DNA from: Rodentibacter pneumotropicus DSM 21403
Lineage (GTDB): Bacteria; Pseudomonadota; Gammaproteobacteria; Enterobacterales; Pasteurellaceae
Direction of reading: 5' to 3'
Assembly (NCBI RefSeq): GCF_000379905.1
Contig: NZ_KB904041.1
Location: 166,351-230,350 of the forward strand
DNA length: 64,000 nucleotides
In this document: positions 3,609 to 59,201 of the stretch, piece after piece
Layout of the letters: every line of letters begins with the position of its first letter
How positions within the stretch are numbered: the stretch's first letter is position 1
The notes under the pieces: generated by a model
Databases searched by the model: none
Told to the model about the DNA's origin: nothing
What the model saw: only the letters and a program-made list of their open reading frames with translations
Position numbers and translations under genes: made by a program

Positions 3609-3920
3609 CTAAATTTTAAAGATACGGCTATTTCCCGTTGGCATTTCGACCGCGAGGCTTAATTTACCACCCATTGTCTCGACATAGCGTTTTAGAGTAG
3701 AGAGCCGAATATCATTGCCTCTTTGCTCAATTTGTGCGACAGCCGGTTGAGAAATACCTAACGAGGCTGCTAAATCTTTTTGTGAAAGCTCTAAGTCCTC
3801 ACGTAATTTAGAAAGACCGGCTTCTAGAATAAGCTCTTCTGCCATTTCTTGTATTTTAGTTTGTCTGTCCCGTGGCAACTCTGCAAGAAAGTCATCAAGG
3901 TTTGTGAGTTTTTTTGCCAT
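3609..3920 (-). CDS. higA: Type II antitoxin, HigA-like XRE protein
   Basis: A 103-residue protein with a helix-turn-helix at about 44-75 (SQKDLAASLGISQPAVAQIEQ), followed by a stretch (LSTLKRYVETMGGKLSLAVEMP) typical of HigA/VapI antitoxins. It starts two bases after the stop of the toxin gene, so the two are translationally coupled in the HigB-first order characteristic of this family. It should neutralise the toxin by binding it, and repress the operon through the palindrome over the promoter. Symbol and pairing are by family and context. Confidence 0.8.
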   Translation of the reverse strand: MAKKLTNLDDFLAELPRDRQTKIQEMAEELILEAGLSKLREDLELSQKDLAASLGISQPAVAQIEQRGNDIRLSTLKRYVETMGGKLSLAVEMPTGNSRIFKI

Positions 3921-3922
3921 TA

Positions 3923-4282
3923 TTATTTCTCCAGATTATCTAAGTAGAGCGTAAATTCTTCGTCAGCCAGGCGAATCATTCTTTCATAAAATTTTTTATC
4001 GTTACTTTTATCGCCAGCACATAGAACAATAGCCTGCCGAAGCGGATCAAATGCAAAAAATGCACGCAATGGTTTCCGTTGATGTTGAATGCGTAATTCT
4101 TTCATATTGGCATATTTCGATCCTTGAATGGTATCCGCATAAGGACGAGATAATTGCGGACCACCTATTTTTAAACGTTGTAAAGCCGCTAATATAGAAT
4201 CTTGAGCTTCTTCATCTTGCTCAAGCAACCAATTGTGAAAGCAATCAGTAAAAAGCACCGTCCATTGAGTTATTTTCGTCAT
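3923..4282 (-). CDS. higB: Type II toxin, HigB-like (RelE superfamily, DUF891 type)
   Basis: A 119-residue basic protein whose core (MKELRIQHQRKPLRAFFAFDP, then AIVLCAGDKSNDKKFYERMI) is the phage-Gp49/HigB signature. These toxins are ribosome-dependent mRNA endonucleases. The conserved pattern of basic residues ahead of a K-x(4)-FYERM helix is present, so the gene appears intact. It is the first gene of the operon, with its own promoter and operator upstream at 4303-4336. Activity is inferred from the family. Confidence 0.8.
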   Translation of the reverse strand: MTKITQWTVLFTDCFHNWLLEQDEEAQDSILAALQRLKIGGPQLSRPYADTIQGSKYANMKELRIQHQRKPLRAFFAFDPLRQAIVLCAGDKSNDKKFYERMIRLADEEFTLYLDNLEK

Positions 4283-5391: not shown

Positions 5392-5412
5392 AAGAAGGGA
5401 GGTATAGGATAA

Positions 5413-5440
5413 AAGTGCGGTAGTTTTGCCGTGCTTTTTT
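5413..5440 (+). terminator. Terminator using an uptake signal arm with wobble pairs
   Basis: AAGTGCGG (5413-5420) can pair as RNA with CCGTGCTT (5429-5436) through two G-U pairs, followed by TTTT. It closes the 4733-5391 gene pair. Confidence 0.6.
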
Positions 5441-5496
5441 CTTTGATAATTCAACCTTGTCACTTTGGCTAAAAATAGCAAATTAGCTTCAAAAAA

Positions 5497-5570
5497 CGTT
5501 CCGAAACTAAATTGTTGAATATTGATTTATAAAGGAAAATGTATATCAAAATCGCAGTAATTTCGGAACG
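5497..5570. repeat. 10-bp perfect inverted repeat with 54-base spacer
   Basis: CGTTCCGAAA (5497-5506) recurs as TTTCGGAACG (5561-5570). It lies at the edge between phage DNA and core genome. No gene is seen from 5392 to 5620 otherwise. It could be a structural RNA arm pair, a regulatory site or a trace of the prophage boundary. Confidence 0.5.
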
Positions 5571-5620
5571 GAAAACAGCCATCAAGCCTTGAAAAGGCTG
5601 AAAGTATTAGTTTTGTGAAT

Positions 5621-5712
5621 AAAAAAACGCCTATTTGTGGGGAAATAGGCGGGAATGTTGGAGTGATTATTGCTGAGAGTTTTTAATTGAAAATCAGCTT
5701 GTTATTGGAATA
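5621..5712 (-). ncRNA. Candidate Fur-repressed small RNA (RyhB/HrrF-like in design)
   Basis: A minus-strand transcript starting about 5711-5713, six to eight bases after a TATCAT -10 box, would be about 90 nt long. It would end in a strong intrinsic terminator: CGCCTATTT (minus-strand stem, 5651-5643), a CCCCAC loop, AAATAGGCG (5636-5628) and seven T (5627-5621). The region has no open reading frame with a ribosome binding site. An unstructured A/C-rich stretch in the middle (CAATAATCACTCCAACATT) is suitable for pairing with mRNAs. Two Fur boxes sit at the promoter. This is the architecture of iron-starvation small RNAs such as RyhB, and of HrrF reported in H. influenzae. I cannot confirm sequence identity to HrrF. 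Confidence 0.7.
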
Positions 5713-5717
5713 TCTAG

Positions 5718-5769
5718 ATGATAATTGTTATCAAAAATGTTGTCAATAAATAAATGAAAATAATTATCA
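5718..5769 (-). promoter_or_regulatory. Promoter with two Fur boxes driving the small RNA
   Basis: On the minus strand TTGACA (5746-5741), a 17-base spacer and TATCAT (5723-5718) form a near-consensus sigma-70 promoter. TGATAATTGTTATCA (5719-5733) covers the -10 region and differs by one base from the 7-1-7 Fur motif. A second site, TGAAAATAATTATCA (5755-5769), also one base off, lies upstream of the -35. No protein gene starts in this direction, so the target is the noncoding transcript. Confidence 0.75.
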
Positions 5770-5777
5770 AAATTTTA

Positions 5778-6494
5778 TTATTTAATATAAGGTACAGATT
5801 TCGTCAATGAAAGTGCGGTAGGAATTCCCTGTAAAATTTCAAATTCACCGGCATAGGCATAAGCTTCCACGCTTTGTTCTATCGCGTCTTTTAACAATCT
5901 ATCATACTCAGGATCGATATATTCGGCGATTTTAAAACGATCAAATCCATTGTGCAGACCGGCAAACAACACGACAGCGCGATGACCTTGTTTTTTCATC
6001 GCCAATAATTCCCTCACGTGTTTTTGCCCGCGTGTGGTGACGGCATCAGGAAACATACCGAGATTGCCTTTCACTAAAGTAATAGATTTCACTTCTACAT
6101 AGCAATCCGGCAGTCCTTCGCCTTTAAGTAAAAAATCAATACGGCTATTTTCTTCACCATATTTGACTTCAGGATATATTTCATCATACATCGCTAGTTC
6201 TTTAATTTGTTTGTTTTGTAATGCTTCAAACACAAGTTGATTAGAACGATGGGTATTAATACAGCAAAGTTGTCCGTTAGCCAGTTGGGTGAGTTCCCAT
6301 GAATGGGGATATTTTCGAGTTTGGCTACCGGAATGAGAATACCAGACGATATCCCCTTTCTCGCCACAACCCGTCATCGCTCCTGTGTTGGCACAGTGAA
6401 TCGTCATCACTTCACCGTTCGGTAATTCAATATCAGCGAGAAAACGTTTGTAGCGGCGAATTAATTTTGCAGATTGAAGAGTGGGAAGTTGCAT
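5778..6494 (-). CDS. sfsA: Sugar fermentation stimulation protein SfsA
   Basis: The 238-residue protein matches SfsA along its length: N-terminal OB-like half ([26 protein letters not shown]) and C-terminal PD-(D/E)XK-like half with ENSRIDFLL and YVEVKSITL, whose D, E and K fit the nuclease-fold core. SfsA was named from E. coli effects on maltose fermentation. Its biochemical role is unsettled, though nucleic-acid binding is suggested. It stands alone, divergent from nothing close by, with the small RNA promoter directly downstream. Confidence 0.93.
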
Positions 6495-14172: not shown

Positions 14173-14342
14173 CTTATATTCATTTTCATCTTTTCGCTTT
14201 TATTTCCAAACCGTATAAAATAGTGCGGTCACAAAAAAAGCAAGGTTTTTTGAATATTGGCTTTTCCAACGGCTCCAAAGGAGTGAATAAATCACTTTAG
14301 TGATTTATGAATAATTTTAGTGAAATTTTTTACGAGGTTACA

Positions 14343-57482: not shown

Positions 57483-59201
57483 TTAGAACATAAAATAGCG
57501 CTGTGCCAGTGGCACTTTTTCTGCCGGTTCACAGGTGATAAGTTCGCCATTAACTCGGACTTCGTAACGTTCAGGATCCACGGTGATTTCAGGTGTGGCA
57601 TCATTATGAACCAAGTCTTTTTTGCCAATATTACGGCAGCCTTTCACGGCAATAAGTTCTTTTTGTACCCCGTATTGAGCTTGAATATCCGCTTGTTTAC
57701 TTGCTTCAGATACAAACACTACAGCAGTTTCAGTTGCTGCTTTGCCTTGGTTACCAAACATCGGGCGGTAGAATACCGGCTGTGGTGTTGGAATAGAAGC
57801 ATTTGGGTCACCCATTTTCGCGTAGCTAATAAAGCCTTTTTTAATGACTGTTTCGGGTTTCACACCGAAAAACATAGGCTTCCATAATACAATATCAGCG
57901 ATTTTTCCGACTTCCAATGAACCGACGTGATCAGCAATACCGTGTGCAATAGCGGGGTTGATTGTGTATTTGGCAATGTAGCGTTTAATACGGAAGTTAT
58001 CGTTGCCTTCAGTGCCTAATTCACCTCGTTGTGCCTTCATTTTATCCGCTGTTTGCCAAGTACGGGTGACGACTTCGCCTACACGTCCCATTGCTTGCGA
58101 GTCTGAACTCATAATTGAGAACACACCGATATCGTGTAAAATATCTTCTGCCGCAATGGTTTCAGGGCGGATACGGCTGTCAGCGAACTCCACATCTTCC
58201 GGTACGCATTTATCCAGATGGTGGCAAACCATCAACATATCTAAATGTTCATCAATAGTATTAATGGTAAATGGACGGGTTGGGTTTGTTGAAGCCGGTA
58301 ATACATTTGGATACATTGCCGCTTTAATAATATCGGGTGCGTGTCCACCGCCTGCGCCTTCAGTATGGAAAGTGTGGATAACACGTCCGTCAATCGCCTT
58401 CATTGTATCTTCCAAGAAACCGCTTTCGTTGAGAGTATCCGTGTGGATCGCCACTTGAACATCCATTTCGTCTGCGACTTTTAAGGCTGCATCAATCACT
58501 GCGGGTGTTGCTCCCCAGTCTTCATGGATTTTTAAGCCTAACGCTCCTGCTCGAATCTGCTCTCTTAACGGCTCAAGGGTAGAGCAGTTGCCTTTACCGA
58601 AAAAGCCCACATTGACAGGCAATGCCTCTGCGGCTTGGAACATTCGTTGTAGATTCCAGGCGCCAGATGTACAAGTTGTGGCATGCGTACCATCAGCCGG
58701 GCCGGTACCGCCACCAATCAATGTCGTTGTTCCGTTTTCAAGGGCGTGTTGAGCTTGTTGTGGGCAGATAAAGTGAATGTGGGTATCAATTCCACCGGCA
58801 GTCGCGATTAAGTGAGCAGCATTGTGCACTTCCGTGCTAACGCCAATAATCATATTTGGAGTGACACCATCCATTGTATCAGGATTGCCGGCTTGACCGA
58901 TGCCGACAATACGTCCGTCACGAATACCAATATCGGCTTTGATAATGCCAAGTTTCGCATCAATAATCATCACGTTAGTAATGACAAAATCCAGTACATT
59001 GGGATTGTCGCGCGTTTCTGTGCCGGATTGTGCCATACCGTCACGCACACTTTTTCCTCCACCAAACTTACATTCATCGCCTTTGGTGAGTAAATCTTGT
59101 TCAATGGTTGCCCATAAATCGGTGTCGCCTAATCTCACACTATCGCCTACGGTTGGACCATAAGTTGCAACATATTGGGCTCTTGGTATAGTTAATGCCA
59201 T
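57483..59201 (-). CDS. ureC: Urease alpha subunit
   Basis: The ATG at 59201 has AAGGAAG upstream and gives 572 residues ([20 protein letters not shown]); longer readings overlap ureB. Nickel ligands and the carbamylated lysine are visible: [54 protein letters not shown] and the catalytic MVCHHLDK. It hydrolyses urea to ammonia and carbamate in the cytoplasm. Confidence 0.98.

Follow-up and report, generated by a model that had tools for sequence, protein, structure and literature searches.

What does the intergenic stretch downstream of sfsA in Rodentibacter pneumotropicus encode? A sequence-only reading of the window (the whole stretch of DNA that was analysed, 64,000 nucleotides) had proposed a probable iron-responsive small RNA gene, either HrrF or a functional equivalent, next to a prophage scar. 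Our best reading is that the element is a Fur-repressed, RyhB-like iron-sparing RNA, separate from HrrF in sequence and in locus; we infer its transcription, Fur binding, pairing and repression from sequence.

Anatomy of the locus

The features of the locus, in the order of the minus strand, are as follows.

5778..6494, minus strand: sfsA (Pfam SfsA), the upstream neighbour in part of Pasteurellaceae
5755..5769, minus strand: distal Fur box, 13/14 fixed positions of the 7-1-7 consensus
5741..5746, minus strand: -35 hexamer TTGACA, conserved well across the aligned Rodentibacter and Haemophilus loci
5719..5733, minus strand: proximal Fur box, overlapping the -10 hexamer, 13/14 fixed positions of the 7-1-7 consensus
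5718..5723, minus strand: -10 hexamer TATCAT, from promoter sequence and locus alignment
5621..5711, minus strand: predicted small RNA of 91 nt, its start taken from the promoter
5672..5698, minus strand: optional 5' hairpin, from single folds of 10 sequences and alignments
5657..5669, minus strand: single-stranded core UAAUCACUCCAAC, nearly invariant and predicted unpaired, the proposed seed
5628..5651, minus strand: terminator hairpin with the loop CCCCAC at 5637-5642
5621..5627, minus strand: terminator U tract, from the sequence

The sfsA gene ends at 5778 and the element lies downstream of it. All the elements that had been read from the letters are present. The promoter, TTGACA (5746-5741) and TATCAT (5723-5718) separated by 17 nt, scores 11/12. 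The two Fur boxes (5719-5733 and 5755-5769) carry one mismatch each, one lying over the promoter and one upstream, and a Fur consensus scan of the 64-kb window returned no other site of at least 13/14. The terminator stem at 5651-5628 has the nine base pairs described, including four G-C pairs, and seven T come after it; the position of the hairpin had to be corrected, as it begins about 60 nt from the predicted start and not about 90 nt after it, the length of the transcript being about 91 nt. The absence of a protein gene also holds, with zero ORFs of at least 30 aa in the ORF list overlapping 5621-5711.

The 91-nt transcript folds at -15.9 kcal/mol (z-scores of -6.2 and -7.0 in two runs), and none of 200 shuffled sequences was equally stable. 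In the predicted fold the 5' hairpin (5698-5672) comes first, then a stretch without pairs, and last the terminator. The A/U-rich single-stranded stretch and the U tail are compatible with Hfq; HrrF is described as Hfq-independent (PMC4144887).

The window remains homologous to three Rodentibacter relatives only as far as about 5609, some 12 nt beyond the U tract of the terminator. Leftwards of this break, as far as about 3600, PHROGs identifies a toxin/HTH pair (3612-4282), and one ORF has a weak tail-fibre match (E 0.009). The proposed prophage scar fits these results only in part; 2 of the 5 ORFs tested on this side had no PHROGs match.

Conservation across Pasteurellaceae

The element was found in 139 of 140 Pasteurellaceae genomes, mostly as a single copy and often beside sfsA and/or tyrS. 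A plain DNA search gave matches in 122/140 genomes, the weaker ones spanning only part of the query. A first covariance model built from 17 sequences matched 138/140 genomes and 41/43 genera, and a wider model of 65 sequences added one genome of a further genus (G097), in which the core is without one C, a Fur box is present and tyrS is next. For the remaining genome, G013, no convincing copy was obtained; its best candidate had neither Fur box nor core and was taken as a chance match. The predicted RNA is about 66-98 nt long across the family, and 66-69 nt in the Haemophilus-type relatives.

Two genomes carry the element as tandem double copies, each copy with its own Fur box (G030, presumed Pasteurella bettyae, L091 1423-1656; and G104, L127 1416-1691), which is reminiscent of the PrrF1/PrrF2 pair. 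As a separate observation, G013 carries a pair of short, near-identical units (L225, L226) at a distance of 271 bp, whose sequence resembles a promoter and a terminator (TATGACTCCAAACTTTAGCCCC). A Fur box was not seen in them, and they are possibly an unrelated RNA pair.

Outside the family, 5 genomes gave matches at E 0.0016-0.008 when 394 genomes were searched at order level under stricter filters, which is about the chance level. The exact core-plus-loop pattern occurs in 79 stretches of the GTDB 220 species genomes, 78 of them from Pasteurellaceae and one from a Saprospiraceae MAG, and it was not found in viral contigs. The named carriers include H. influenzae, H. parainfluenzae, H. ducreyi, A. 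actinomycetemcomitans, P. canis and M. haemolytica. Judged by these searches, the element is confined to Pasteurellaceae apart from chance-level matches.

The Fur boxes follow the element. Within 110 nt upstream, a box of at least 12/14 is present in 91 of the 92 fetched copies, and for the sole copy without one (L018) the contig ends 59 nt upstream; the background for such a box is 46 of 1781 windows from the same loci. Among the named genomes the box accompanies 78/80 matches, the two misses being the Saprospiraceae match and a contig end. When separate boxes of at least 10/14 within 110 nt upstream are counted over the 92 copies, exactly two are found in 69, more in 5, one in 17 and none in 1.

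Conservation within the RNA is concentrated in two places. Both AATCACTCCA and the loop CCCAC are invariant across the 65 distinct aligned sequences, and AATCACTCC together with a CCCAC-type loop is present in all 90 fetched loci, no locus failing in a scan that was defined by those words. The terminator stem, on the other hand, exists in 52 distinct versions among 91 with compensatory changes, while the C-rich loop and the core barely vary. In the stem alignment 81% of cells pair, and the covariation value is 0.607 compared with a shuffle mean of 0.254 (none of 500 shuffles as high) and at most 0.217 for slid controls; two of the five covariation measures, both-side changes and pair types, were not above the shuffles (194 and 217 of 500). 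The sequence result is that of a Rho-independent terminator under structural selection. We know of no role that would account for an invariant C-rich loop on a rewritten stem (window 5637-5642).

The 5' hairpin is kept in most Rodentibacter despite its rewritten sequence, as seen from individual folds. It is absent from the Haemophilus-type copies and from those in two genomes of the window's own genus (L022, L025), these RNAs being 66-69 nt long. RNAalifold did not recover it on the alignment, so that this hairpin rests on the individual folds.

The sequence-only reading had made its proposal depend on the conservation of the hairpin and boxes in related genomes; this was checked in the 140 Pasteurellaceae genomes and the finding survived. 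An iron-responsive small RNA gene is strongly supported by the comparative evidence, namely a Fur box at every copy with complete upstream DNA, the covariation of the terminator, a core with almost no variation and the iron proteins among the predicted targets.

Predicted targets and proposed mode of action

RyhB of E. coli, PrrF, NrrF and FsrA are Fur-repressed RNAs that lower iron-using proteins. The same working principle is proposed for the element, which has no Rfam sequence match to them at E up to 10; its C-rich, anti-Shine-Dalgarno-like region recalls that of FsrA. In the presence of iron, Fur-Fe(II) would occupy the two boxes over the promoter and keep the promoter off. Under iron starvation Fur would leave, and the short RNA would be made, ending at its own terminator. 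The single-stranded core would then pair with GGAGUGAU-type ribosome-binding sites, and mRNAs that encode iron, heme and Fe-S proteins which the cell can do without would be translated less, as under RyhB in enterobacteria. The chief targets would be anaerobic nitrate, nitrite, formate, hydrogen and TMAO respiration and Fe-S enzymes. We consider it very probable that the locus encodes such a Fur-repressed, trans-acting base-pairing small RNA, with the core pairing to ribosome sites, and that it is a second iron-sparing RNA of Pasteurellaceae besides HrrF.

A plain 12-mer search without a start codon in 7 genomes gave 98 matches (RNA genes included) compared with 65 for the reversed control, and fell below the control in two genomes. 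Of 40 regions fetched, L284 and L285 were left out because their site was off-centre. Since the 12-mer enrichment was mild and many matches were coding, the search was moved to sites with a start codon. The target pattern consisted of the 10-nt complement of the core followed by ATG within 9 nt, and it was applied to the 140 genomes. It gave 258 matches in 115/140 genomes. The reversed pattern gave 30, and a permuted one in which GGAG was retained gave 53, spread over 39/140 genomes. Among the 258, a few fall on the strand opposite the RNA gene itself or in coding sequence, as with ccmD. The recurrent ccmD and pilin-type matches were not counted, as their sites code for the conserved WSDF.

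The genes behind the 258 matches were identified among the matches listed (up to G080). In a tool-supplied sample of 30 loci per pattern, with 29 printed each (L307 and L403 left out), the core pattern yielded 15 ORFs of at least 60 aa at that ATG, of which 9 encode iron proteins (hcp 5, hybO 2, cyaY 1, fdnG 1). The permuted pattern yielded 21 ORFs with 6 iron proteins, these being radical-SAM genes of two kinds as judged by Cys motifs. Counted by gene kind, the iron share is 4/9 for the core pattern and 2/10 for the permuted control. A further 60 regions, hand-picked among the matches listed with recognisable ccmD and pilin types mostly left out and with at least one repeat (L386 = L312), added the lldE-like gene, cysI, ilvD, hemN, torC and an NADH-4Fe-4S protein. 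Families were assigned with NCBIfam and Pfam, several proteins being fragments below the full-length NCBIfam cut-offs, and the lldE-like protein was named by reading, Pfam showing only a cysteine-rich CCG domain.

When GTG starts or shorter matches are admitted, nrfA is added in A. actinomycetemcomitans, fdnG (with its SECIS element) and napB in the window's genome, and fdnG, napB, nrfA and a hemerythrin/ScdA_N protein in the presumed H. influenzae. Over several genera, ribosome-site matches were thus obtained for hcp, hybO, fdnG, nrfA, napB, torC, the lldE-like gene, cysI, ilvD, hemN and cyaY. For single genomes, the window's own has 21 target matches compared with 3 reversed, and H. influenzae has 9 matches to an 8-mer ribosome-site pattern compared with 8 for the reversed control. 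Among 19 computed duplexes the best pairing used the core and 9/19 beat 95% of shuffles; these pairs were chosen for complementarity and do not form an independent test.

The matches also include the non-iron genes SirB, glpF, recX and a topoisomerase zinc-ribbon protein. The recurrent sites in the leuA 5' region, SirB and EpmC were not counted as iron genes. The SirB-type membrane gene has an GGAGUGAUUAUG ribosome site in three genera (L434, L444, L371, L299; Pfam on L434 only), and its duplex is one of the nine above the shuffles; SirB is, to our knowledge, not an iron protein. In Rodentibacter and H. influenzae, UUUGGAGUGAUUUUAG lies in a leuA-like 5' region (L262, L260), which may be a further target because LeuCD is an Fe-S enzyme.

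The strongest rival accepts a Fur-controlled RNA and supposes that it acts mainly by another route, for example by protein binding through the C-rich loop, the complementarity to ribosome sites being largely a Shine-Dalgarno coincidence. Invariance is as complete in the loop as in the core, such complementarity is expected of any anti-Shine-Dalgarno-like sequence, and the iron excess by gene kind given above is small. However, iron, heme and Fe-S genes recur in several genera, the share by locus is 9/15 compared with 6/21 for the permuted pattern, and the total of 258 matches compares with 53 for that same pattern. GGAGUGAU does resemble a normal extended Shine-Dalgarno sequence, a bias which the permuted control retains. 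We judge this rival improbable, though the least so of the four considered here.

Base pairing by the core may have a more specific form. The 16S rRNA anti-Shine-Dalgarno tail is AUCACCUCC, and the core AUCAC-UCC reads like this tail minus one C; in the DNA fetched for the analysis the tail itself was not found. Perhaps, then, the element is a family-wide mimic of the ribosome tail, such that iron-costly mRNAs marked with GGAGUGAU would be bound better by the RNA than by the ribosome, with the C-rich loop as a second contact. We put this forward tentatively and as rather unlikely; if true, iron starvation would silence a whole gene class through a single 8-11 nt tag in the ribosome site.

Published expression data can be set beside the predicted targets. 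The genes that A. pleuropneumoniae expresses less under iron limitation include hcp, napB, hyaA, fdxG, torY, ykgE and nrfA, with log2 values of -1.0 to -2.6 (PMC3091793, Table 2). Seven target kinds obtained from sequence are therefore also on that list, where ykgE is taken for the lldE-like gene, and hyaA, fdxG and torY for hybO, fdnG and torC, by our reading of the names. The genes cysI, ilvD, hemN and cyaY are absent from the lowered list, and one gene, annotated as an oxygen-independent coproporphyrinogen III oxidase, rises under iron limitation. The lowered list could equally reflect other regulators. The authors of that array study suspected a RyhB-like RNA without having one (PMC3091793). 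The element, Fur-boxed and family-wide, with a core complementary to ribosome sites in nrfA, napB, fdnG, hybO, hcp, torC and the lldE-like gene, is a direct candidate for this missing RyhB-like link behind the many respiratory and Fe-S genes that iron limitation lowers in Pasteurellaceae.

Neighbouring genes and known RNAs

The second rival concerns the neighbours. The sfsA gene was found in 28/30 close loci, and it lies upstream on the same strand in 30/60 wider loci, 28 of which are the close loci. The tyrS gene follows on the same strand in 65/92 copies, and the element could accordingly be a cis-acting tyrS leader or attenuator (or an sfsA terminator), with the Fur boxes serving that gene. 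Several results speak against it: tyrS was not found in the available stretch for the other 27/92 copies, promoter-like sequence was read by eye between the terminator and tyrS, the element stands in tandem in two genomes, and its conserved core matches distant iron genes. Moreover, tyrS is absent from the window and from the 60 kb to its left though the element is intact there, so in this genome there is no tie between the two at the level of tyrS expression. A cis-acting role is, in our opinion, quite improbable.

A trans-acting RNA with paired ribosome sites, as preferred here, still has to be placed among the known RNAs. No family of Rfam 15 matches the element at the gathering cut-off. 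At E up to 10 over 5400-5900, twelve unrelated families appear, and HrrF and RyhB are not among them; the RyhB family (RF00057) gives neither a sequence nor a structure match.

JA01-JA04 (RF02729-RF02732) are iron- and Fur-regulated small RNAs of Aggregatibacter actinomycetemcomitans (PMC4144887, PMC5753348) and are present in Rfam (PMC5753348). They are alike in being iron/Fur-regulated RNAs of Pasteurellaceae and unlike in that their models do not match the element. The Aggregatibacter copies of the element closely resemble the Pasteurella copies, as is said of JA02 in PMC4144887. Identity with one of the four was nevertheless rejected as very improbable: no RF02729-RF02732 match at E up to 10 covers the copy in G014 (presumed A. 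actinomycetemcomitans DSM 8324), where JA02 (RF02730) lies at G014:C13:28231-28346 and the element on another contig, at G014:C5:133282.

HrrF (RF02728, about 97 nt) is likewise an intergenic RNA of Pasteurellaceae with Fur boxes over its promoter and a Rho-independent terminator; the Fur box at the promoter is an HrrF-like trait that the element shares through its two boxes of 13/14. The two differ in sequence and in locus, the HrrF of H. influenzae lying between pmbA and hpt (PMC4144887) and the element downstream of sfsA here. The window's genome has its own HrrF after pmbA, at G000:C18:37021-37138 (L045), with its own Fur box. That the element is HrrF or a moved HrrF copy is the weakest of the rivals and practically discarded: the design of Fur boxes over the promoter, short RNA and terminator is common to both, as is the octamer CTCCAACA in the window's genome, but a full HrrF stands at pmbA-hpt in that same genome (RF02728, 102.8 bits), the element has no RF02728 match even at E up to 10, blastn of the element against pmbA loci gave only short matches at E 0.08 or worse, and the coexistence of both RNAs in G000 and G062 (presumed H. 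influenzae) refutes it. The octamer was also dropped as a common seed, as the HrrF of other genera varies there. From the proposal of HrrF or a functional equivalent, the first half has thus fallen and the second is strongly supported by comparison.

The published targets of HrrF are modABC, asnA/asnC and nrdB, and of six such targets only modABC is lowered by HrrF (PMC4144887). Santana et al. describe HrrF there as the only Fur-regulated intergenic transcript in their H. influenzae study (PMC4144887). As a conjecture, an RNA of about 69 nt may have been lost in their library preparation. The presumed H. influenzae genome carries the element, and if it is expressed, the view of HrrF as the only such RNA in this species would be corrected.

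EvsRna13 of A. pleuropneumoniae is reported beside sfsA, between gloA2 and sfsA (PMC10708910). It resembles the element in this neighbour and differs in its 248 nt, its other listed promoter and its primers without the core. Two loci of genus g2 (presumed Actinobacillus, A. pleuropneumoniae itself not among them) have no sfsA near the element. No printed description of the element was found in the open-access papers searched, and a nameless entry in RNA-seq catalogues is possible (A. pleuropneumoniae APP-S, H. somni HS, M. haemolytica). By the Rfam models, the element belongs to none of RyhB, HrrF and JA, and we regard it as a new RNA family that would work on the known principle of RyhB.

Elsewhere in the window, Rfam places AaHKsRNA22 (RF02902), an Aggregatibacter-type small RNA, at 14223-14324 on the plus strand (73.7 bits). 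It also matches 5_ureB_sRNA (RF02514) at 58746-59048 on the plus strand (52.9 bits), which is perhaps urease-gene sequence.
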